Assembly (NCBI GenBank): GCA_012839845.1
Contig: DUMM01000021.1
Span: forward strand, 1 to 32,125
DNA: 32,125 nucleotides
Origin: Bacillota bacterium
Lineage (GTDB): Bacteria; Bacillota; Limnochordia; DTU087
Reading direction: 5' to 3'
The notes below the pieces were generated by a model. The model did not search any database, was not told where the DNA came from, and worked only from the letters and a program-made list of their open reading frames with translations. Both the position numbers and the translations under genes were made by a program. Each line of letters begins with the position of its first letter. The first letter of the stretch is position 1. This document shows, piece after piece, positions 1,085 to 28,313 of this stretch.

Positions 1085-3874
1085 CTATATCAGCTGCAGA
1101 CTTTGCTTCAGCATTTGGTCTGCCGCGGCAGAGGCAGTGATTTTCCCATCCTTAAGATAATAAGCCCTGTCGGCGATGGAAAGCGCTGCACTGGCGTTTT
1201 GCTCAACCAGCAGCACTGCTGTTCCGGTCCTGTTAATCTCTGCAATGGTGCTCATCACCCTGTCTACCATGATGGGAGCAAGGCCCATCGACGGTTCATC
1301 CATGCAGATGAGGCGGGGTGAAGTAACCAGTGCTCTGGCAATGGCCAGCATCTGCTGCTCGCCTCCCGAAAGGGTACCGGCCAGTTGGTTGCGCCGTTCG
1401 GCTAGAACGGGGAAGAGGCTGAAGACCTTCTCCAGACCGGCCAGGGACTCTGACCGAGGAAGGGAGTCGGCAGCCAGGTCTAGGTTTTCCATGACGGTGA
1501 GATCAGGCAGTATGCGGCGGCCCTCGGGCACCACTCCCATTCCCATCCTGATTATTTCATACGTCGGCAGACCGTCAATCCGCCGGCCGAGGAAATAGAT
1601 CTCTCCTTGGGTGGGGCGGAGCCGTCCGGTGATGGTCTTCAGGGTTGTGCTCTTGCCGGCGGCATTGAGGCCCAGAAGGGTCACCGCTTCGCCGGGATAC
1701 ACGCATAGGTCAATCCCTTGGAGTACCTTGGCTGGCCCATAACCGGCATGTACGTTCATAAGCTTGAGAAGAGGCTGTGAGTTGGGGACAGTTCTGTTGT
1801 CTCCAGATACGCGGTCTGACACTTGAACAGTTGTTTCGATCGCTGCCGCACTGGGTGCGGATTTGAGCGACCTCTCTATGATGCTGATGCGTCCCGCGTG
1901 GCCATCATCAGAGGCAGAGGAACTGCCGAAATATGCCCGGATAACCTCTGGATTTTGGGCTACATCCTCGGGTCTGCCTTCGGCGATTTTCTCGCCGTAG
2001 TTGAGCACCACTGCCCGATCGCACACAGAGGCGATGAGGTCCATGTGATGTTCAATGACTACAATGGTGTAGCCCTGCTGTTTCAAGTGAACGATTTCAT
2101 CAGCAAGCTGGGATATCTCCTCAACAGTCATACCTGCCGCCGGCTCATCGAGCAGGAGCAGTTTGGCTCCTGTAGCAAGGGCTCGGGCCATTTCAACCCG
2201 CCGCTTGTCAGGGTAGGAAAGCTCGGCAACTTGGTCGCCTTCCCGCTGAGCCAGGCTGCATTCAACCTGGTCCAGAATTCCCCGCACATAGCTGATGGTC
2301 TCAGCCTCCTTGCGCAGGTGAGACTCAGACCTGAAGAGGATTTCTGGTAGCAGAGCCTTGTGGCGCAGGTGGCATCCAGCCAAGACGTTCTCTAGGACGC
2401 TTTGAGTTTCATACAGCCGGATATTCTGAAAAGTCCTGGCGGTGCCCAACTGGGCCACCTCGTGCGGCGCCTTGCCCACAATTGACTGCCCATACAGTCG
2501 GATATCCCCGCTGGTCGGCCTAATAAGGCCCGTTACCAGGTTAAACAGGGTTGTTTTACCGGCACCGTTGGGCCCGATGATGCCTAAGATTTCTCCTTGA
2601 TGTACGGTCAAGCTGACGTTGGAGAGGGCAGTCAGCCCGCCGAAGGTGCAGGTTACGTTCTGAAGCTCGAGAACTGGAGCTTTGGCGGTATTGGAACTCT
2701 CCAGTTTGCTGGACCGTCCAATGGCCGAGAGCTTTCCGTCTCTCGCCGGGGAAGCGCTGCTCTTCTTGATCCCTCTAGATGCCGCTGTTTCCGACTTCTG
2801 TACCTTCTTGGGACTAATACCCATCAGTCTCTCGCCGACGCCTATCAACCCTTGAGGCCTGAAAATTGCCAGAAGCACAAGGGCCAGGCCGTAAATCAGC
2901 ATGCGGTAGATGCTGTAGGCCCGCAGAGCTTCGGGCAGAACCTGGAGAAGCAGGACACCCAACATGATCCCCGGTACGCTGCGCACTCCCCCGAGGACCA
3001 CCATGCAGTAGAGGGTGATGAGCTCCGTCATGGTAAAGTTCTGGGGGAATACTGCCCGCTGCCAAGAGGCAAAGAGAGCACCGGCAAGACCGGCAACAGC
3101 CGCAGCGCCGGCGAAGGCTGCGATCCGGTAACCCTTGACGTTCACGCCCATACAGGCCGCGGCGATTTCGTTCTCCCGCAAAGCATTCCAAGCTCGGCCA
3201 ATTTTGGACCCCGCAAGCCGGGATACGCCGATGAGCACAGCAATAGTAAGAATCCAGATGAAGACGTACTGAGATTCCAGGGTGGCGAAGGTGTATCCGA
3301 AGATGCGGGGCGGATCGATTGCCACGATGCCGTTGGGACCATTGGTGATGTTGATGGGCCGGTCCAGGTTGTTCAAAAGAATCCGCACAATCTGACCAAA
3401 GCCCAGGGTTACCATGGCCAGGTAATCGCCGTGCAGTCTCAGGGTGGGAATACTGACTGCCAAGGCAGCCAGGACTGCTAAAGCGATGCCGATGAGGGCT
3501 GCCGGCAGGAACGGCAGATGCAAACCGAATTTGGGTGATGCCAGGAGCGCGTATGCATAGGCCCCTATGGCGTAAAACCCCACGTAGCCCAGGTCCAACA
3601 GCCCCGCTTGCCCTGCCACTATGGAAAGGCCGGCGGCCAGCATGAGGTAAATGCCGACAGATCCTCCTACCCGGATGAGGTAGTAATCCCGGGTGAGGAG
3701 GGGGATGGGAAGGATTAGGGCATAGACCAGGAACACTAGAATCCGCACCAACGGATAGTGACTGCCCGCCTGCTCCCGCAGCCGGGCCAAGGAGCCGGTG
3801 AACTCAACCGCCTTTGGACGGTGATGAGCTGCCTTTTCCTTTGGAATTTTGTTGCGCTCGTAATCCACAGCCAT
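1085..3874 (-). CDS. LivM-LivG-LivF triple fusion, branched-chain amino acid ABC importer
   Basis: One 929-residue polypeptide holds three normally separate importer subunits. Residues 40-350 are a LivM-type permease with about eight to ten hydrophobic helices and the coupling segment ALRENEIAAACMGV (231-244). A Ser/Lys-rich linker follows (351-399). Residues 400-650 are a LivG-type ATPase with Walker A GPNGAGKT (434-441), Walker B LLLLDEP (572-578) and an H-loop IEHH. Its ABC signature is LSYPDKR rather than LSGGQ. A second linker (651-700) leads to a LivF-type ATPase, 701-929, with Walker A GLNAAGKST (735-743), canonical LSGGEQQ (835-841) and Walker B LICMDEP. The fused ATPases would form one canonical and one degenerate nucleotide site. 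The gene follows livH with 41 bp between and depends on the T-box leader upstream of livK. I see no frameshift or internal stop, so the fusion looks genuine. Confidence 0.95.
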   Translation of the reverse strand: MAVDYERNKIPKEKAAHHRPKAVEFTGSLARLREQAGSHYPLVRILVFLVYALILPIPLLTRDYYLIRVGGSVGIYLMLAAGLSIVAGQAGLLDLGYVGFYAIGAYAYALLASPKFGLHLPFLPAALIGIALAVLAALAVSIPTLRLHGDYLAMVTLGFGQIVRILLNNLDRPINITNGPNGIVAIDPPRIFGYTFATLESQYVFIWILTIAVLIGVSRLAGSKIGRAWNALRENEIAAACMGVNVKGYRIAAFAGAAAVAGLAGALFASWQRAVFPQNFTMTELITLYCMVVLGGVRSVPGIMLGVLLLQVLPEALRAYSIYRMLIYGLALVLLAIFRPQGLIGVGERLMGISPKKVQKSETAASRGIKKSSASPARDGKLSAIGRSSKLESSNTAKAPVLELQNVTCTFGGLTALSNVSLTVHQGEILGIIGPNGAGKTTLFNLVTGLIRPTSGDIRLYGQSIVGKAPHEVAQLGTARTFQNIRLYETQSVLENVLAGCHLRHKALLPEILFRSESHLRKEAETISYVRGILDQVECSLAQREGDQVAELSYPDKRRVEMARALATGAKLLLLDEPAAGMTVEEISQLADEIVHLKQQGYTIVVIEHHMDLIASVCDRAVVLNYGEKIAEGRPEDVAQNPEVIRAYFGSSSASDDGHAGRISIIERSLKSAPSAAAIETTVQVSDRVSGDNRTVPNSQPLLKLMNVHAGYGPAKVLQGIDLCVYPGEAVTLLGLNAAGKSTTLKTITGRLRPTQGEIYFLGRRIDGLPTYEIIRMGMGVVPEGRRILPDLTVMENLDLAADSLPRSESLAGLEKVFSLFPVLAERRNQLAGTLSGGEQQMLAIARALVTSPRLICMDEPSMGLAPIMVDRVMSTIAEINRTGTAVLLVEQNASAALSIADRAYYLKDGKITASAAADQMLKQSLQLI

Positions 3875-6257: not shown

Positions 6258-6285
6258 AAAAAAGCCCGTCCCAAAAGGGACGAGC
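6258..6285 (-). terminator. Intrinsic terminator of the T-box leader
   Basis: On the minus strand, GCTCGTCCC (6285-6277) pairs with GGGACGGGC (6272-6264) around a TTTT loop. One pair is a G-U wobble (T over G). Six T follow at 6263-6258. Its 5' arm overlaps the antiterminator pairing partner, so the two structures are mutually exclusive. Confidence 0.93.
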
Positions 6286-6619
6286 CTTATACTCGCGGTG
6301 CCACCCTAATTGGATAGGCTGATGCCTAACCCACTTTTCCAGGGTACGGCCTCTTATCTAGGCGCCCAACTGGCTGGGCCCGGCCGGTTGGGTAGAACAA
6401 GTGCCTACTAAGGGCGATACCCCTGCCCGGTAACGGGGGCTGCCGGCTCAACCTACTGAGTTAACCGCCCATGGGGAAACTGTTCGGCCTGCGGCTCCGG
6501 GGCCCACTCGCCGCACCCTTCCCGCGGGGCTTCCACCATCCCCCGCTCGCTTAGGGCCGGTTTGCTGCGGCGATCTTCCCCATCAACGCCTTTCCTTCCC
6601 ACAATAGATGATGAAGTTT
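6258..6619 (-). promoter_or_regulatory. T-box riboswitch leader of the liv operon
   Basis: Read on the minus strand, the leader carries the T-box hallmark AGGGTGGCACCGCG at 6307-6294. Just before the terminator, AGGG and GCGAG of this segment can pair with downstream CTCGT and CCCT to form the antiterminator. Upstream are the Stem I base (ATGGGGAA pairing with TTCCCCAT) and a Stem I tip (GCGGGG/CCCCGC enclosing GATGGTGGAAG), followed by a Stem II-like region with AGTA. Uncharged tRNA would stabilise the antiterminator and switch on livK, livH and livMGF (family knowledge). The likely specifier region is near 6497-6509 and reads GAGTGGGCCCCGG. By comparison with known leaders the codon could be GCC (Ala) or GGC (Gly). 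I could not settle it, and no Leu or Ile codon is evident there. Confidence 0.9.
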
Positions 6620-6757: not shown

Positions 6758-8401
6758 ATGGTTCTGTTGCTGGAGAGATTGTGGCAGAGACTGCGGCGCA
6801 AGAAAGAGACACCCCAGCCGCGAGATTTCGACGGCGTATCCTTAAGCGAGCTGTTGGAATTTATTCAGTCGCAAGACTTGGTCTCTGACCTCAAGGAAAA
6901 CGAGGCCATGATCAAGCAAGCCCTGGGCGATAGTTCCGATCTTACCCTTCGCCACTTGAGATTTGGCCGTGAGCTTCAGATACCTGTTTTAGTTCTTCAC
7001 ATTGACGGCATGGTAGATTCGGAAACGCTCATGAACGGACTTATCGGACCTATCCTGGGAAAAAGCTCGTGGCTTTCGGAGGAAGAGTCTGGACAGAGGC
7101 TGAGTAGAAGTGAGCTCTTTCTCTTGATGAAAGAGCAGATCCTGCGCAATAGTTCTGTGCACGAGACAGCGAGTCTGGATGAACTTCTGGATTACCTGGT
7201 CAGGGGCAATGCCGTCTTGCTCATGGACGGTGTACCTAAAGCCTTGGCCTGTGAAGTTAAAGGCTGGGCTGAGAGAAATGTTCAGCAGCCCACTACTGAG
7301 GTTGCTGTCCGGGGACCACAGAATGCCTTTATAGAAAACCGCCGAGTGAACACAACATTGCTCCGAAGGATCATCGCCTCCCCTTTATTGTGGTTTGAGG
7401 ACTTTAAGGTGGGAGCTGTCACCAACACCATGGTGACCATTGCCTATATCAAGGGGTTAGTTGAGGACAGTTTGGTGGAGGAAGTAAGGGAGCGGATCAG
7501 CTCCATCGAAATCGACGCTATATTCGAAAGCGGACACATAGAGGAACTCATTGAAGATGCTCCGTATTCTCCTTTTCCCACCATCCTCAGAACCGAACGG
7601 CCGGACAAGGTGGCTGCCGCGCTGCTGGAGGGAAGGGTTGCGATCATTACCGACGGTACTCCTTACGTATTGGTTGTTCCAGTTACTTTTCAAAGCTTCT
7701 TGACCGCTGCGGAGGACTATTACGAACGGTTTTTTACGGGTTCGGTGGTTAGGTTTATCCGGGCTGTCGCCTTCTTCCTGGCTCTTACCTTGCCGTCAAC
7801 GTACGTAGCTGTTACAAACTTCCATCAAGAGCTGCTCCCAACATCCCTTACTTTGAGCATTGCTGCCCAGCGGGAAGGAGTACCCTTTGTAGCTATTGTC
7901 GAAGCTTTGTTCTTGGAAGTCTCCTTTGAGCTGTTGCGGGAGGCTGGAATCAGGCTGCCTAAGGCTATTGGCCCTGCCATCAGCATCGTTGGCGCCCTTA
8001 TCTTGGGTGAAGCAGCCGTTTCCGCTGGGCTGGTGTCCTCGGCTTTGGTGATTGTTGTTGCGGCTACGGCTATTGCATCCTTCATCAGTCCCATATACAG
8101 CATGTCCATCAGCGTTCACCTGCTGCGCTTTCCCATGATCCTCCTGGCCGGCACTTTGGGCCTTTTTGGGGTAATGATGGGTTTGGCCGCCATCTTGATC
8201 CACCTTTGCAGCGTCCGATCCTTCGGGGTACCATACCTGACTCCGTTGGCACCGGCAGTGCCTTCCGAGTGGAAGGATACTGTAGTCCGGGTACCTATGT
8301 GGAAGATGGATACGAGACCCAAATCCCTGGTGAAGAAGGAGTTCATACGCCAAAGCCCCAGGCAGAGACCTCAGCCGCCTGAGCAAGAGGATACCGAGTA
8401 G
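6758..8401 (+). CDS. gerAA: GerA-family spore germinant receptor, A subunit
   Basis: This 547-residue protein is the A subunit of a nutrient germinant receptor in the spore inner membrane. Residues 25-325 are the hydrophilic domain, including the family-typical segment VAVRGPQNAFIEN (182-194). Residues 330-490 hold four to five hydrophobic helices with LTLPSTYVAVTNFHQELLP between them. The tail after residue 500 is basic and hydrophilic. Length and order fit GerAA. The ATG is preceded by a near-perfect AAAAGGAGG five bases upstream. It is the first gene of a gerA-B-C-D type operon, divergent from the liv operon. The ligand cannot be told from sequence. Confidence 0.96.
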   Translation: MVLLLERLWQRLRRKKETPQPRDFDGVSLSELLEFIQSQDLVSDLKENEAMIKQALGDSSDLTLRHLRFGRELQIPVLVLHIDGMVDSETLMNGLIGPILGKSSWLSEEESGQRLSRSELFLLMKEQILRNSSVHETASLDELLDYLVRGNAVLLMDGVPKALACEVKGWAERNVQQPTTEVAVRGPQNAFIENRRVNTTLLRRIIASPLLWFEDFKVGAVTNTMVTIAYIKGLVEDSLVEEVRERISSIEIDAIFESGHIEELIEDAPYSPFPTILRTERPDKVAAALLEGRVAIITDGTPYVLVVPVTFQSFLTAAEDYYERFFTGSVVRFIRAVAFFLALTLPSTYVAVTNFHQELLPTSLTLSIAAQREGVPFVAIVEALFLEVSFELLREAGIRLPKAIGPAISIVGALILGEAAVSAGLVSSALVIVVAATAIASFISPIYSMSISVHLLRFPMILLAGTLGLFGVMMGLAAILIHLCSVRSFGVPYLTPLAPAVPSEWKDTVVRVPMWKMDTRPKSLVKKEFIRQSPRQRPQPPEQEDTE

Positions 8402-8436
8402 TATTGTACTCTGCTGGTGAAGGAAGGAGAGTCATC

Positions 8437-9558
8437 TTGGCAGTCCTTGAGGGCGGAAGAATTAGCGGTAAACAGTTTATAGCTTTAGCAGTTCTGACCC
8501 GAATCTTGGCGGCTCTGCTGGAGGCCCCCACAATCTCCGGCACCAACGCAGGACACGATGTTTGGATAGCGATCCTCATTTCAACTTTTCTCACCCTTCC
8601 TTGGGTATTCCTGTGGGTGCAGCTTGCCAAGATGTATCCCGGAAAGACCATTATCCAGTACAGCATGGATATCCTCGGGCCGTGGTTTGGGCGCCTAGTG
8701 GGCCTTGTACTGATTGTGTACTTCCTGCAGCAGTCAGCCCATGCAGTTCGGGTGGCTGCCGATGCTTATGTGACTACAATTATGCCGGAAACTCCCCTCA
8801 TCGTGTTTATCGCTATTATGACGGCGCTGTCCTCCAACTGCGCCCGTTCCGGGCTGGAAGTTCTAGCCCGGGCAGCGGACATTGTATTTCCCCTCGTGAT
8901 GTTTCTTCTGGTGCTGATCCTGGTTCTTCCCATCGGCACCGCAGATCCCTTGAATTTGCTGCCGGTAGCCGCTTACGGCTGGCAGCCCATCTTCGAGGCT
9001 TCCTTGTCTTCCTTTGCCATCTTCGGTGAACTGATAGTCATGACCATGCTGTTTCCCTATCTCGATGAAGCCAAGGAGGCCAATCGATTGGCAGTAACCA
9101 CTGTCTTGCTTGCAGGCTTTCTTTTCACTGTGTTTTCCATCGTCGTAGCACTGGTCTTCGGACCTGCAATGGGAAGTCTCATTTTCCCAGCCTTCAGCCT
9201 GAGCCGGTCAATTGAGTTTGCCTTCGTAGTGGAACGGGTAGAGGTGATTCCTCTAGTTGCGTGGACTTTGGGTGCCGGTGTCAAGCAGACGGTATTCCTT
9301 TGGGCCGCTATGTTGGGGATTGCCCAGCTTTTCAATCTGTCGGAGATGAAATCTCTGGCTTATCCTGTGGGGGCACTGGTGGCCAGCTTTTCGGTCTGGC
9401 TGTTCAGCACTATTTTTGACGCGCTGCAGTTTTACACAGCTGCAGAATTCGGCCCCCTGGCTATTATTGCTACGTATGTTATTTCTCTGGTTCTGTACAT
9501 CGGCGCTCTTATCCGCCGATCTGTCCGATCCAGCCGGGGAGAGGAGGCGCGTCCGTGA
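8437..9558 (+). CDS. gerAB: GerAB-family germinant receptor, B subunit
   Basis: This 373-residue polytopic protein is the B subunit, a member of the amino acid/polyamine transporter superfamily and the likely ligand-binding part of the receptor (family knowledge). About ten hydrophobic helices fill the sequence. The start region GGRISGKQFIAL matches the usual GerAB opening, in which a short cytoplasmic segment precedes helix 1. I place the start at TTG 8437, after AAGGAGAG six bases upstream. An upstream TTG at 8404 has no good ribosome site. The gene lies 35 bp after gerAA, and its stop overlaps the start of gerAC. Confidence 0.93.
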   Translation: MAVLEGGRISGKQFIALAVLTRILAALLEAPTISGTNAGHDVWIAILISTFLTLPWVFLWVQLAKMYPGKTIIQYSMDILGPWFGRLVGLVLIVYFLQQSAHAVRVAADAYVTTIMPETPLIVFIAIMTALSSNCARSGLEVLARAADIVFPLVMFLLVLILVLPIGTADPLNLLPVAAYGWQPIFEASLSSFAIFGELIVMTMLFPYLDEAKEANRLAVTTVLLAGFLFTVFSIVVALVFGPAMGSLIFPAFSLSRSIEFAFVVERVEVIPLVAWTLGAGVKQTVFLWAAMLGIAQLFNLSEMKSLAYPVGALVASFSVWLFSTIFDALQFYTAAEFGPLAIIATYVISLVLYIGALIRRSVRSSRGEEARP

Positions 9559-10778
9559 CGGGGAACTCGAGAAAAGTGCTGGTTGTGATGCTGATCGTGA
9601 TTTCTATGCTGCTGGGAGGGTGCTGGAGCCGGCGGGATGTAGAGAGGCTGGCCTTTGTTCTGGCAGTGGCTGTGGACAAAGCCCAGGACCCCGATAAGGT
9701 CCAGCTGACAGTAGAGCTGGCCAGGCCGTCAGCTCTAACGGCTACCAGCCAAGGGGGCGGCTCTTTGGAGAGCGCCGTATGGCGAGTATCGAGTACGGGG
9801 TATACGGTGTTCGATGCCATCCGCAACTTCGCCTCCCAAGTACCCCGCCAGTTATTCTGGTCCCACAACCGCCTTATAGTTTTCGGTGAAGAGATTGCCA
9901 GGGAGGGGCTGGAGGATGTGCTGGATGCCTTTTTCCGGGATCCTGAAATGAGGCGGTCGGTGAAAGTGATAGTCTGCAAGGGCGATACCGGGGCGAACTT
10001 TCTCCTGGTGGACGTACCCCTGGAGAGGGTGCTTTCCGGGGGCATTCAGGGGATAATTTCAAGCTCGGTAGAGAAGCTGTCCACCATGGTCGACATAGGT
10101 CTGAACTACTTCGGCCGGGCGCTGTCGGCAGACGGCCTGGAGCCAATTGCCGTCAGGGGAGAGATCATCGACTTGCCCCCCGATGAGGATCCGCGGGGCA
10201 GTCTGGAGCGGACAAAGATCTCCAAAGCACCCCGGATCACAGGCGCTGCGGTATTCAAAGGGACCAAGCTGGTGGGATGGCTGGATAAACCCGAAGCCCG
10301 GGGCTTCAACTGGATCAAGGGCAAGATCGGCGGCGGAGTAATCACTGTAGAGAAACCCAACGAACGGAATAAGTTCATAGCGGTGGAAATTGTAAGAACT
10401 AGGAGCAATATCAAGACAGAGATAGTAGGCGGCAAGCCGAAGGTGACGATAAAAGTCGAGTGCATGGGGAATTTTGCCGACAGGGAGAATGTCTACGTAA
10501 ACCCAGAGGGTGTTGCACCCACTGTGCTTTCCATCGAAAGGCAGATGGCGGCGGTAATCAGAAACGAGATAGAGGCGGCTGTCAAGAAGGCCAAGGAATT
10601 CGGTTCGGATATCTTCGGCTTCGGTGAAGCTTTTTACAGGTTCCACCCCAAAGAATGGAAGCGGCTGCGGGAGGATTGGAACGACAAGGGTTTCCGAGAA
10701 CTGCAGGTCGAGGTGGAAGTTAAGGCCATGCTCCGGCGCTCAGGTCTGATCGAGCTGGAGGTGCCTTTGGGAAAGTAG
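9555..10778 (+). CDS. gerAC: Ger(x)C-family germinant receptor lipoprotein, C subunit
   Basis: This 407-residue protein is the lipoprotein C subunit. A lipoprotein signal occupies residues 1-22 with lipobox LGGC and the lipidated Cys at 23, followed by WSRRDVERLAFVLAVAVD, which matches the GerAC opening. The rest is soluble and contains a C-terminal Ger(x)C domain with FGFGEAFYRFHPKEWKRL-like features near residue 355. The GTG start at 9555 overlaps the gerAB stop (GTGA), with GAGGAGG seven bases upstream, so the two are translationally coupled. Confidence 0.95.
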   Translation: MTGNSRKVLVVMLIVISMLLGGCWSRRDVERLAFVLAVAVDKAQDPDKVQLTVELARPSALTATSQGGGSLESAVWRVSSTGYTVFDAIRNFASQVPRQLFWSHNRLIVFGEEIAREGLEDVLDAFFRDPEMRRSVKVIVCKGDTGANFLLVDVPLERVLSGGIQGIISSSVEKLSTMVDIGLNYFGRALSADGLEPIAVRGEIIDLPPDEDPRGSLERTKISKAPRITGAAVFKGTKLVGWLDKPEARGFNWIKGKIGGGVITVEKPNERNKFIAVEIVRTRSNIKTEIVGGKPKVTIKVECMGNFADRENVYVNPEGVAPTVLSIERQMAAVIRNEIEAAVKKAKEFGSDIFGFGEAFYRFHPKEWKRLREDWNDKGFRELQVEVEVKAMLRRSGLIELEVPLGK

Positions 10779-23143: not shown

Positions 23144-24223
23144 GTGGGTTTGCCGATGCTGGTCGTCAACATCAGGGCGATCTACGATAATGCTGTCAAC
23201 GCTGTCAGGGCTTGTGGGAAAGCGGGGCTGGAACTGTTTGGCGTGACCAAGGCGGTTGGGGGGCTGCCGGCAGCTGCCCGGGCTATGCTGTCAGCAGGTG
23301 CCGTGGGCATTGCCGATTCTAGAGTAGCTAACCTGGAGAAACTGCGGAAAAGCGGCATCGGTGCACCTTTGATGCTCCTTAGAAGCCCAGGCGTGCAGGA
23401 TAGCAGACGTGCAGTCAGGGCAGCAGACATCATCTTGGTCTCAACCCTTTCCGGGATCGCGGAAATCTCCCGGGCACGGGATGATATGGACATCAGCCGG
23501 GAGATTCGGCTGATCCCCATGGTAGAAATGGGAGACCGGCGGGAAGGAATCATGCCGGAGCTGCTGAATGATGTGGTGGAAGCGGCGGACAAGCTGTCAG
23601 GGGTGCGCATCCTGGGTTTGGGTGCCAACTTCGCCTGCTTTGCCGGAGCTGTTCCTACGGCGGAGAAGATAAAGTACCTGGAGGAGCTGGCCCGGGGCCT
23701 GGAAGACAGGTGCGGCGCCGGTTTGGTCCTTTCTGCCGGAAACAGCAGTGCCCTAAGCTTGGTGTTGGAGGGAAAGTGGCCGAGGCTCTCGTATCCCGCA
23801 CACCTGCGGGTGGGAGAGAGCATTCTTCTAGGTTGGGACATCATGACCAAAGAGCCCTTGCCGGGGATGAGGCAGGATGCTTTCCAGTTCTACGGGGAAG
23901 TAATCGAAGTGGCGAAGAAGCCCAGTCTGCCCGACGGCCCGGTTGGCTGCAATGCCTTTAATGAAAGGGTGCGCCCCGTGGATCGGGGCTGCCACTGGCG
24001 CGCAGTGGTGGCCGTCGGCCGGCAGGACATCGGCGCCGGTACTCTCATCCCTGTGGATCCCGGAATTGAGGTCTTAGGAACATCCAGTGACCACACTGTG
24101 CTGGCGGTGGATGACGCCCAAAGGTCAATTAAGGTAGGCACTCAGCTGGAGTTTCGGCTGGATTACGGTGGGCTCCTGGGAGCTATGACTTCTCCGTATG
24201 TGGAGAAAATAATCAGAGAGTAG
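23144..24223 (+). CDS. Alanine/ornithine racemase-family PLP enzyme
   Basis: This 359-residue protein has the fold-type III PLP barrel of alanine racemase, in the version related to clostridial ornithine racemase. The PLP lysine is Lys 36 in FGVTKAVGG. The segments GLGANFACFAGAVP, SAGNSSALSL and HLRVGESILLG, with a C-terminal beta domain, match the Orr-type family. The substrate cannot be read from sequence; alanine, ornithine or another amino acid is possible. The GTG 23144 start follows GGAGGGGTGATG. It comes 58 bp after cwlD. Confidence 0.88.
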   Translation: MGLPMLVVNIRAIYDNAVNAVRACGKAGLELFGVTKAVGGLPAAARAMLSAGAVGIADSRVANLEKLRKSGIGAPLMLLRSPGVQDSRRAVRAADIILVSTLSGIAEISRARDDMDISREIRLIPMVEMGDRREGIMPELLNDVVEAADKLSGVRILGLGANFACFAGAVPTAEKIKYLEELARGLEDRCGAGLVLSAGNSSALSLVLEGKWPRLSYPAHLRVGESILLGWDIMTKEPLPGMRQDAFQFYGEVIEVAKKPSLPDGPVGCNAFNERVRPVDRGCHWRAVVAVGRQDIGAGTLIPVDPGIEVLGTSSDHTVLAVDDAQRSIKVGTQLEFRLDYGGLLGAMTSPYVEKIIRE

Positions 24224-24268
24224 TGTGTGGACAGGCTTAACGCACAGCCCAGAAGGAGGGGTGTAGCT

Positions 24269-25666
24269 GTGGATAGAGGCGGTCCCGGTAAGGTGGTTTT
24301 AGGCGCACTGTCGCCCCATCCCCCCCTGCTGATTCCCGAAGTGGGAGGGGACATGCTGCTTGAGGTAGATGACACTAAGCGGGCAATGGAGAGGTTGGCC
24401 CTGGCCGTTAGGGAGGTGGACCCCGATGTCGTGGTAATCATCAGTCCCCACGGACCCATTATGCCCGGCAGTATTGGAATCTGGGCCGTCGGAACCTTGA
24501 AGGGGGATTTTGCCCGCTTCGGAGCCCCGGAAGTAGCCTTTACGGTGGAGAATGACCTGGAGCTGCTCAGCGTGCTGCTGGATGAAGGGCGAGCAGCAGG
24601 TTATCCCCTGCAAGGGGTAGACGAGGCCTTGCTCAAGCGGTATGGATATCCCCCGGATTTAGATTACGCCACTTTGATTCCCCTTTACTATCTGGAAAAA
24701 GCAGGAGTAAGAAAGCCGGTTCTCCCCATGGGTATGGGGTTTTTTCATCCTCGAAAGCTGTATGAGTTTGGGGTAATCCTCCGCCGGGCAGTGGAGAAAG
24801 CCGGCCGGCGGGCAGTGATAATCGCCAGCGGTGACCTCTCCCATCGGTTGACTGTCGATGCCCCTGCCGGTTATTCCAAGAGCGGTCCCGCCTTTGATAG
24901 GACTCTGTGGGATCTTTTGAGCAAAGGCGACGTCGAAGGCATTCTGAACATTGACCCCCAGCTGCGGGAGGATGCCGGTGAGTGCGGATACCGATCTCTA
25001 GTGATGATGCTGGGCTGCTGGGAAGGCAGGTCCGTCAAGACGGTGCCGCTGTCTTATGAGGGGCCTTTTGGAGTGGGCTATGGAGTTTGCCTTATCCGGG
25101 ACAAGGACCTATACCTTGCCAGCCTGGGGGAGGACGAAGGCAGGCAGAGTTCCAGACCCCATCCCTTGGTAGAACTTGCCCGCCGGACAGTGGAGGCCAT
25201 TGCCCGGGGTGAGGCGCCGCCCTCGGCGGAGGACGTCTCCCTTCCTGGGGATCTGCCCGCCAGGGCGGCGGTATTTGTGACTCTGTATAGAGATGGGCAT
25301 CTCAGGGGCTGTATCGGCACCATCGAGCCGGTACACTCCAGCCTGGCAGAGGAAGTGATCAGCAATGCTAGGCAAGCGGCTTTCGCCGATCCCCGTTTCC
25401 TGCCGGTAAGGGCCTTTGAGCTCAACAGGATAACTTATTCAGTGGATGTGTTGGGCGAGCCGGAGCCGGTTGATGATGAGCGCCAGCTGGATCCAAGAAT
25501 ATACGGTGTGATCGTGAGGTCAGGCCGGCGGGTAGGCGTGCTCTTGCCGGATATAGAAGGAATCGATACTGCCAAGACCCAGGTGGACATAGCCCGGCGT
25601 AAGGCTGGGATTAGGCCGGATGAGCCGGTGGAGCTTTATAGGTTTAGGGTTATCCGGTATACGTAA
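24269..25666 (+). CDS. MEMO-AMMECR1 fusion (AmmeMemoRadiSam proteins B and A)
   Basis: This 465-residue protein fuses two members of the AmmeMemoRadiSam set. Residues 8-275 are a MEMO1/class III extradiol dioxygenase-like domain with the metal-site-type motifs HPPLLIPE (His 17), SPHGP (His 61) and SGDLSHR (His 192). Residues 298-465 are an AMMECR1 domain with the hallmark LRGCIGTI (345-352). The reaction is not known for any organism, to my knowledge. I start at GTG 24269, because AAGGAGG lies nine bases upstream; a GTG at 24227 has no site. The matching radical SAM gene follows 60 bp later, so all three parts of the system are present. Confidence 0.94.
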   Translation: MDRGGPGKVVLGALSPHPPLLIPEVGGDMLLEVDDTKRAMERLALAVREVDPDVVVIISPHGPIMPGSIGIWAVGTLKGDFARFGAPEVAFTVENDLELLSVLLDEGRAAGYPLQGVDEALLKRYGYPPDLDYATLIPLYYLEKAGVRKPVLPMGMGFFHPRKLYEFGVILRRAVEKAGRRAVIIASGDLSHRLTVDAPAGYSKSGPAFDRTLWDLLSKGDVEGILNIDPQLREDAGECGYRSLVMMLGCWEGRSVKTVPLSYEGPFGVGYGVCLIRDKDLYLASLGEDEGRQSSRPHPLVELARRTVEAIARGEAPPSAEDVSLPGDLPARAAVFVTLYRDGHLRGCIGTIEPVHSSLAEEVISNARQAAFADPRFLPVRAFELNRITYSVDVLGEPEPVDDERQLDPRIYGVIVRSGRRVGVLLPDIEGIDTAKTQVDIARRKAGIRPDEPVELYRFRVIRYT

Positions 25667-25726
25667 GAAGGCCGTCGGGGCATTGCCCGCCTTTGAACCG
25701 GAGCGTCACCGTGGGGAGGGAGAGAT

Positions 25727-26740
25727 GTGGCAAAGGAAGTGCTGGTGAGAACCGCTGCCTACTACAGCCGGGAAGGTGATGGTGTTCGCTGCCGGCTTTG
25801 CCCCCACAGCTGCCGGCTCATGCCGGGTCAGACCGGCCTGTGCCGGGTGAGGGAGTGCCGTAACGGCGAGCTGGTGACGCTGAGCTACGGCAGTGTGAGC
25901 TCCATCGCCCTGGATCCCATCGAAAAGAAGCCGCTCTATCATTTTTGCCCGGGGAGCACCGTTTTATCCCTGGGGACCTTTGGCTGCAATCTCCGCTGCC
26001 AATATTGCCAGAACTGGCATATTTCCCAGAGGGTGGGAAAGGCTCAGATCCTGAGTCCGGAGTCGGTGGCCGAGCTAGCCCTAGAGTACCGGCAGGAGCG
26101 GTGTATCGGTGCAGCCTTTACCTACAATGAACCCACCATTTGGTTTGAGTTCATCTGGGATGCTGTCCAACACATTAAGGCGGCAGGATTGGCTGCTGTA
26201 CTGGTCACCAACGGATACATGTCTGCCGAGCCTTGGCGAGAACTGCTGTCCTTCATCGATGCAGTAAACGTGGATGTTAAAGGATGGAGCGATGAGTTTT
26301 ACCGACAGGTATGCGGAGGAAAGCTGCAGCCAGTACTGGATAATGTCGAGACTGCCCGGCAGCTTTGCCATGTTGAGCTCACCTATCTCATTGTTCCGGG
26401 TCATAATGACGATGACGACAGCATTCGGGGGTTTGCCCGGTGGGTCGGCCAGCGGCTGGGCAGAACCACACCGGTACACTTCTCCCGCTTCTTCCCAAGC
26501 TATGACCTGGCTCTCGAGCCCACCCCTATCTCCACCATGGAGAGAGCCCGCAGTCTGGCCCAGGAGTGGCTGGATTATGTTTACCTGGGCAATGTCAGTA
26601 TACCCGGCGCCGCAGATACCCGCTGCGCCAAGTGTGGCACTTTGTTGATTCAGCGAGGCCCCGCCTACCATCTCCGAATCCGTGCTGATGAGAAGCGCTG
26701 CCCTGCCTGCGGAGAGGAAGTACCTTGGGTTTGTCAGTAA
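25727..26740 (+). CDS. amrS: AmmeMemoRadiSam system radical SAM enzyme AmrS
   Basis: This 337-residue radical SAM enzyme completes the AmmeMemoRadiSam set. The cluster motif is CNLRCQYCQN, with Cys 87, 91 and 94. An N-terminal Cys cluster (CRLCPHSC, 22-29, and Cys 39) and two C-terminal CxxC knuckles (CAKCG and CPACG) suggest further metal sites typical of this family. FTYNEPTIWFEF and VTNGYMS are conserved in glycyl-radical-activase-like relatives, but no glycyl radical enzyme is next to it. The GTG 25727 start has GGGAGGGAG four bases upstream. Confidence 0.95.
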   Translation: MAKEVLVRTAAYYSREGDGVRCRLCPHSCRLMPGQTGLCRVRECRNGELVTLSYGSVSSIALDPIEKKPLYHFCPGSTVLSLGTFGCNLRCQYCQNWHISQRVGKAQILSPESVAELALEYRQERCIGAAFTYNEPTIWFEFIWDAVQHIKAAGLAAVLVTNGYMSAEPWRELLSFIDAVNVDVKGWSDEFYRQVCGGKLQPVLDNVETARQLCHVELTYLIVPGHNDDDDSIRGFARWVGQRLGRTTPVHFSRFFPSYDLALEPTPISTMERARSLAQEWLDYVYLGNVSIPGAADTRCAKCGTLLIQRGPAYHLRIRADEKRCPACGEEVPWVCQ

Positions 26741-26879
26741 CGCCTTACGGCAGCACAGACAGCCCAGGTTTTGGCTGCAATGATCGGCAGGGGAAACAGC
26801 AAGCTTGTCGAAAAAAGAAACAGGAAGACTAGCGTCCTTTTTAGTTTTCCAGATTATGGTCACAGTGGAGGGAAACGCG

Positions 26880-28313
26880 TTGGAGCATCGGGATTTGTGG
26901 CAGGACTACAACCGCAGAGCATGCCGGCGGGAGATCAAGGCCCGGGCATTTGCTGCGTTTAATACATGTATAGACGCAGTTGTGCACGTTACGGACAGGC
27001 TGATGGAGGAGATCACTGCCAAAGATACCAGTATTGATTGGCAGCAAGTTGCCCGCGGTTCGGCCAGCGAGATCAACACCGTCAAGAGCAAGGAAGATCT
27101 CTTGATCGTCCTCAAGGACTGCCTCAGCGGCGGCAAGTCTTTCCACATAGTACTGGAGAATCTATCTCTGCTGGATTGGCTGGATGAGCATTTCACTGGC
27201 GCCAGGGAGAGTATGGGCGGTCAGGCTGGAATCATCGCCAATCAGCTGGCAGCTCTGGGTGCCCAGTCTATGGTGTATACACCACTTCTGTCTCCCAAAC
27301 AGGGCAGGCTCTTTGCTGAGGGCATAACAACCCCGGTGGTGACAGAAGATGGGCTGAAGATCCTGCCTATTCCAGAAGCGGTACGGAATGATGACGAGAC
27401 CAAGATCAACTGGATCTTCGAGTATGCTAAGGGAGAGAGCATCCGCTTTGGCACTGAAGTTGTAACTACGCCTAGGGCCAATCGGGTGATTTTGGCTACC
27501 AGGCCGGCGGGTGCAGTGATGTGCTTTGATGACAAGCTGGTGGAGCACCTGCCCCAGCTGGGAAAGGAAATCGACGTGGCCTTTATGGCTGGCTACCACT
27601 ATGCTGAGCCCGTTAATGCTTGCGGCCGCACCTTTGATCAGTTCATGGCCGATTCCGTTCAGCATCTACATGCCCTCAAAGAGGGTAATCCGAAATTGGC
27701 AATCCACTTTGAGTATGTGCCTATGAAAGCGGCGGAACTGGAGCCCAGGATGCTGGAGACCATCTGCCGGGAGATCAAGAGTTTCGGCATCAATGAGAAC
27801 GAGATCAAGCGGGTGCTGCGGGAATTCGGTTTTGAAGCCGAAATGGAAGAGATTGAAACCCATGAGCGGGCCTATTCCCTGTACCAAGGTGCGCTGCGGC
27901 TTTTCCGGCGCTTGGAGCTTGATCGGATCCACGTGCACAATCTGGGTTATTACGTGATGGTTCTCAGAAAACCGTATCCCGTAACGCCGGAGGAAGTACG
28001 CCAAGCCTGCCTTTATGCTTCATCGGTTAACGCTATGAAGGCCAAGTACGGCGGCTATGTCACCCGGGAGCAGTTGGAGGAAGCTGCGGAGATGAGACTC
28101 TCAGACATCGGTTTTGAGCAGCTGGCTGGTATGGCAAAGGAGCTGGAGAGCAGCCATCCGCAGGCAGCAAACCTCCTGACCGACGGATATCTTGAGTTTG
28201 AGGATCATTACCTATTGGTGGTACCTGCCCACGTTGTGCCGAATCCGGTGAGCACAGTAGGGATGGGCGATACTATCTCATCGTCCTCTTACGCGGCGGA
28301 GGTGGCTTCGTAG
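26880..28313 (+). CDS. ADP-dependent glucokinase/phosphofructokinase-family kinase
   Basis: This 477-residue protein belongs to the ADP-dependent sugar kinase family, ribokinase fold, which phosphorylates glucose or fructose-6-phosphate using ADP instead of ATP. Markers are FNTCIDAVVHV (27-37), GGQAGIIANQLA (113-124), HFEYVPMK (276-283) and the catalytic segment NPVSTVGMGDTISSSSY with GMGD at 461-464 (catalytic Asp 464). The family is best known from Euryarchaeota and animals and is sparse in bacteria. Which sugar is used cannot be decided here. The start is TTG 26880, with GGAGG exactly eight bases upstream; a TTG at 26805 has a poorer site. It ends the plus-strand gene run, 139 bp after amrS. 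Confidence 0.9.
   Translation: MEHRDLWQDYNRRACRREIKARAFAAFNTCIDAVVHVTDRLMEEITAKDTSIDWQQVARGSASEINTVKSKEDLLIVLKDCLSGGKSFHIVLENLSLLDWLDEHFTGARESMGGQAGIIANQLAALGAQSMVYTPLLSPKQGRLFAEGITTPVVTEDGLKILPIPEAVRNDDETKINWIFEYAKGESIRFGTEVVTTPRANRVILATRPAGAVMCFDDKLVEHLPQLGKEIDVAFMAGYHYAEPVNACGRTFDQFMADSVQHLHALKEGNPKLAIHFEYVPMKAAELEPRMLETICREIKSFGINENEIKRVLREFGFEAEMEEIETHERAYSLYQGALRLFRRLELDRIHVHNLGYYVMVLRKPYPVTPEEVRQACLYASSVNAMKAKYGGYVTREQLEEAAEMRLSDIGFEQLAGMAKELESSHPQAANLLTDGYLEFEDHYLLVVPAHVVPNPVSTVGMGDTISSSSYAAEVAS

Follow-up and report, generated by a model that had tools for sequence, protein, structure and literature searches.

Introduction

Published phylogenetic and structural work on ADP-dependent sugar kinases deals with those of archaea and animals. 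The closest described systems are the archaeal ADP-dependent phosphofructokinases (ADP-PFKs) and bifunctional PFK/glucokinases (AncMsPFK, PDB 6c8z/6xio; Pyrococcus horikoshii, 1u2x; M. jannaschii, 5od2), and the archaeal ADP-glucokinases (T. litoralis, 1gc5; P. furiosus, 1ua4) and animal ADPGK (5ccf). Substrate preference follows a short residue rule in AncMsPFK numbering: K179, N181 and R212 are reported to be restricted, as conserved residues, to PFK-specific and bifunctional enzymes, and Glu90 to glucokinases (GKs) and bifunctional enzymes (PMC7948494). The same study mentions the presence of the family in bacteria; in the literature searched, we found no characterised bacterial enzyme of this fold. 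The cyanobacterial ADP-dependent PFK-A enzymes (PMC11609450) are likewise bacterial phosphofructokinases spending ADP, but they belong to the unrelated PF00365 (PFK-A) superfamily and are not homologous to the kinase reported here. A description of the Limnochordales reports Embden-Meyerhof genes and does not name the present enzyme type (PMC11456536).

Here we analyse a kinase gene from Limnochordia that represents an undescribed bacterial branch of this known family and probably encodes an AMP-forming phosphofructokinase. Its donor, its substrate fructose 6-phosphate (F6P) and its glycolytic role are what we infer from its relatives, residues and distribution. In the literature searched, no description was found of a bacterial PFK-type branch that spreads through one class and stands as the sole recognisable PFK in some members.

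Results

The window, by which we mean the whole 32,125-nt stretch analysed (contig DUMM01000021.1), carries the kinase gene as an intact reading frame of 477 codons:

26867–26872, forward strand: GGAGGG, a ribosome-binding site with 7 nt between it and the TTG start (read from the sequence)
26880–28313, forward strand: kinase coding sequence, 477 aa, TTG start; PFK-type member of the ADP-dependent family, group B (PF04587, 238.7 bits; pLDDT 95; PDB matches)

Codon use of the kinase is native, ranking among the best fits of the 24 window genes, and its GC content is 54.3% versus 56.0% for the window; together with the GGAGGG site, these values bear out the initial annotation, by which codon use and ribosome site look native. 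Recent transfer from archaea is ruled out by the native codon use and by syntenic orthologues throughout the window's family and class. Comparison with an 88%-identical orthologue revealed strong purifying selection (dN 0.074, dS 1.07, dN/dS ~0.07).

The Pfam profile for ADP-specific phosphofructokinase/glucokinase (PF04587) matched over nearly its full length (profile positions 2–429 of 430), scoring 238.7 bits (cut-off 27; E 1.3e-70). ADP-specific PFK was the best NCBIfam model (269.3 bits), with the glucokinase models at 167 and 143. Because the corresponding equivalog, TIGR02045, is built on close archaeal members and its cut-off of 408.1 bits was not reached, we call the kinase PFK-type rather than a formal equivalog. 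The AlphaFold model, computed from a 35-row alignment, has a mean pLDDT of 95, a pTM of 0.92 and no disordered stretch. All of its top 22 structural matches in the PDB are ADP-dependent PFKs or GKs, with AncMsPFK and P. horikoshii PFK closest, after which the matches drop sharply to ATP-dependent ribokinase-fold enzymes (E 7e-8). Model and alignment display a ribokinase-like fold with the lid peculiar to the PF04587 family and the catalytic GxGD, HxE and NxxE motifs. Placement among the ADP-dependent sugar kinases, originally proposed from the motifs GGQAGIIAN (residues 113–121), HFEYVPMK (276–283) and NPVSTVGMGD (455–464), all of which were found, is thus confirmed by profile, model and structural matches, and chance is excluded.

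Every closest characterised relative is ADP-dependent, none being the ATP user that would have spoken against the initial annotation, and by analogy with them ADP would be the donor. A family member that has switched to ATP is very unlikely: the donor is not readable from sequence with certainty and some archaeal ADP-PFKs accept ATP to a limited extent (PMC12965863), but the nucleotide-side motifs are kept throughout the alignment of 35 rows and the relatives speak uniformly for ADP.

To read the sugar site, positions probed in AncMsPFK (PMC7948494) were transferred onto the alignment:

26961–26975, forward strand: NTCID, residues 28–32; N32 and D36 of AncMsPFK retained, N34 replaced by Cys in the window copy only
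27144–27146, forward strand: His89 at the position of Glu90, the GK/bifunctional marker (alignment; PMC7948494)
27216–27224, forward strand: Gly113-Gly114-Gln115, sugar-binding motif (alignment)
27402–27410, forward strand: Lys175-x-Asn177, matching F6P-binding K179 and N181 of AncMsPFK (alignment; PMC7948494)
27483–27503, forward strand: Arg202 (R206, essential) and Arg208 (R212, PFK/bifunctional marker) (alignment; PMC7948494)
27597–27599, forward strand: His240 at the Gln244 position (alignment)
27705–27713, forward strand: HxE Mg-nucleotide motif, residues 276–278 (alignment; motif from PMC6028617)
27792–27803, forward strand: NxxE Mg-nucleotide motif, residues 305–308 (alignment; motif from PMC6028617)
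28260–28271, forward strand: GMGD with catalytic Asp464 (D471 of AncMsPFK) (alignment)

Group B, the set of bacterial sequences to which the kinase belongs, retains N32, D36, GGQ, K179, N181, R206, R212, HxE and NxxE, as well as D471 with one exception. Glu90 is absent throughout and replaced by His or Tyr, and position 244 is His and position 284 Val; the three do not occur together in any of the six archaeal-type PDB sequences compared. By the published residue rule, group B is PFK-type and not bifunctional. F6P is only a best guess for the substrate, since the combination at 90, 244 and 284 is absent from these six enzymes. The sugar-specificity residues, whose inspection was suggested at the outset, thus resolve into PFK marks that are present (Lys175, Asn177, Arg208) and a GK mark, Glu90, that is replaced by His89.

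An ADP-glucokinase or a bifunctional GK/PFK would be in keeping with membership of the same family, in which bifunctional enzymes are common among methanogens (PMC6028617). Such an identity is highly improbable, as Glu90 is missing, the GK-type His181 is Asn here, E90A in AncMsPFK sharply cuts GK turnover (PMC7948494) and the tree described below excludes the glucokinases. These residues and the tree rule out a plain glucokinase: the ADP-glucokinases and animal ADPGK share the fold and nucleotide-side motifs with the window kinase, whereas their signature E90, H181 and D212 is absent from it.

Two copies are degenerate and may be inactive kinases or sequence errors: one (L091, genome G060) carries R206Q, HxQ and NxxQ, and the other, a group B copy (L029/L042, genome G041), carries D471A. 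Such copies, along with the Cys at N34 in the window copy alone, could hint at a pseudo-kinase or non-catalytic regulator. We consider this the least credible alternative, given that the window copy and almost every group B member have an intact catalytic Asp, Arg and pair of Mg motifs, and that dN/dS is ~0.07.

The phylogeny proposed initially was built with bacterial and archaeal rows, the latter being six sequences from the PDB, of which two are ancestral reconstructions, and two from Aenigmatarchaeota; for animal ADPGK the comparison was structural. The window gene falls on the archaeal PFK/bifunctional side: group B, together with its offshoot group D, joins the archaeal PFK and bifunctional enzymes at 100/98, with the archaeal ADP-glucokinases outside. 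The archaeal PFK and bifunctional enzymes share with the window kinase a side of the tree, the fold, the catalytic and Mg motifs and the K179/N181/R212 phosphate site; the window kinase differs in being bacterial, only 25–30% identical, and part of a Limnochordia-centred, long-branched clade of its own with His/Tyr90, His244 and Val284. After removal of long branches, a further bacterial group (group A) joins the archaeal glucokinases at 100/98. Enforcing a single bacterial clade of A, B and D cost 17.4 log units (AU p 0.06), and a single bacterial origin is disfavoured, though this p value does not reject it.

The window's genome holds two PF04587 genes, the group B copy and a group A copy on a second contig (C10:5847–7178, L062). 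Group A is marked by H32, mostly Q90, T116, A179, H181 and N212; L062 (His32, Gln90, Thr116, Ala179, His181, Asn212) is of GK lineage with a pocket unlike that of the characterised glucokinases compared. Two group A genes from another class (L107, L109) have an alcohol dehydrogenase gene in common at their loci, and L107 adjoins transketolase genes in split form as well as iron-containing alcohol dehydrogenases, a context that suggests polyol or ketose use. Group C is GK-like (E90 and H181); four of its loci (L111, L090, L092, L078) feature a class II aldolase together with a sugar ABC transporter and an RpiR-type regulator, and by this context its members resemble kinases of sugar or ketose catabolism. 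Group D (L077, L079, L093, L133, L135, L136) shows a third pocket type, with Leu90, Arg179 and Pro181, and is often present as an extra copy.

PF04587 exceeded its cut-off in 47 of 61 genomes (the window's own and its relatives). In a phylum-wide sample it matched in 18 of 250 genomes, 7 of them from the window's class, and a pattern-based scan of public contigs placed near relatives in Bacillota metagenome-assembled genomes, several labelled Limnochordia. The classical PFK family, PF00365, is missing from nine of the 61 genomes (G001, G023, G024, G027, G028, G034, G037, G038, G043), and all nine carry group B, in G001 as a fragment only. As the 14 genomes without PF04587 over cut-off all have PF00365, none of the 61 lacks both. 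Four of the nine (G027, G037, G038, G043) also have no match over cut-off to TIGR03168 (PfkB/FruK type); all nine have glucose-6-phosphate isomerase matches, most of them weak, and eight have class II aldolase. The exception, G037, is without PF00365, class II aldolase and ROK kinase, yet has two group B kinases; G030 likewise has no ROK match. After kinship is considered, the PF00365 losses shrink to about four or five events, and some assemblies are incomplete (G001, 85%); with so few independent losses, co-occurrence of group B and PFK loss across the 61 genomes is not significant. About 32 genomes have group B alongside PF00365, as do other-class carriers. By these profile searches, some relatives have no recognisable PFK other than group B.

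The window's genome has a PF00365 gene of its own on contig C76, with the motifs GGDGS and PATIDND. Since the Lys of PPi-dependent enzymes is missing here, we read the C76 enzyme as ATP-type. The genome search for an ATP- or PPi-dependent phosphofructokinase, suggested at the outset, therefore returned an ATP-type PFK, which rules out the window kinase as the genome's only one.

Upstream of the kinase lie:

23144–24223, forward strand: amino-acid racemase-like gene, conserved upstream neighbour (PF01168; ornithine racemase model below cut-off)
24227–26740, forward strand: gene for a LigB/MEMO-AMMECR1 fusion protein next to an AmrS-like radical SAM gene; only in the window's family do they separate racemase from kinase

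The racemase-like gene lies just 5' of the kinase in several families. A ribose-phosphate pyrophosphokinase (PRPP synthetase) gene lies 3' at six loci (L042, L043, L045, L049, L058, L067); in other lineages, as read from sequence, an argininosuccinate lyase-like gene comes before the kinase or an SmpB-like gene after it. Two genomes of family f10 that lack PF00365 (L076, L088) have it directly upstream of glycogen synthase, which alone among the predicted neighbours bears clearly on sugar storage; most are unrelated to glycolysis. The proposed ADP-using step in glycolysis or glycogen use accordingly stands in part: a sugar step of PFK type fits, while the glycogen link appears only in that one other family. 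A gerA-type germination operon (6758–10778) makes the presumed spore-forming background credible. The suggested role in germinating spores found no support: this operon lies 16 kb from the kinase, whose conserved neighbour is the amino-acid racemase-like gene. Elsewhere in the window, a 929-aa reading frame (1085–3874, reverse strand) is an apparent fusion of a LivM-like branched-chain amino-acid permease with two ATPase domains, LivG- and LivF-like, and a T-box leader (6273–6595, reverse strand; RF00230, 94 bits) precedes the operon for branched-chain amino-acid transport.

Another substrate, which the initial annotation also allowed, would here mean a PFK-lineage ADP-dependent kinase whose phosphosugar is not F6P but, for example, a different ketose phosphate or a pentose phosphate. 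Such an enzyme would accommodate the unusual residues at 90, 244 and 284, the coexisting ATP-type PFK and the pyrophosphokinase gene that comes next in several relatives. We hold it to be unlikely, though the most serious competitor, as the F6P phosphate residues are conserved, group B is the sole PFK candidate in several genomes, and the PRPP synthetase neighbour is missing from the window and most lineages.

Discussion

The reading we favour, with moderate confidence, is an active ADP-dependent 6-phosphofructokinase of ribokinase fold, inherited within Limnochordia. It is supported by the archaeal PFK clade, the retained K179/N181/R212, the absence of Glu90, the best NCBIfam model, the presence of group B in all nine PF00365-less relatives, the low dN/dS and the adjacency to glycogen synthase. 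His/Tyr90, His244 and Val284, the score below 408, coexistence with PF00365, the few PFK-loss events and neighbours that mostly have no tie to glycolysis weigh against this reading. The enzyme would convert F6P and Mg-ADP to F1,6BP and AMP: Asp464 would serve as the catalytic base, phosphoryl transfer would depend on Arg202, HxE and NxxE would bind Mg-ADP, and Lys175 with Asn177 would grip the phosphate of F6P. The kinase would work beside an ordinary ATP-type PFK in this species and is the sole recognisable PFK in some relatives.

More tentatively, and with considerable doubt, the class may run an archaeal-type AMP-forming glycolysis. Group B would then be its ADP-PFK and the sole PFK of several species, group A would be an ADP kinase of GK lineage whose pocket has been re-cut, and the family would have radiated in these bacteria into four or more kinds, their sugar-site signatures being absent from the characterised members compared.

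Limnochordia is a poorly studied class, and this kinase family is known mainly from archaea. With its natural changes at 90, 244 and 284, the kinase lends itself to testing the current specificity rules. An enzyme that is widespread in the class and is the sole recognisable PFK in some species would make ADP-driven bacterial glycolysis directly testable, because some relatives have no other apparent PFK.
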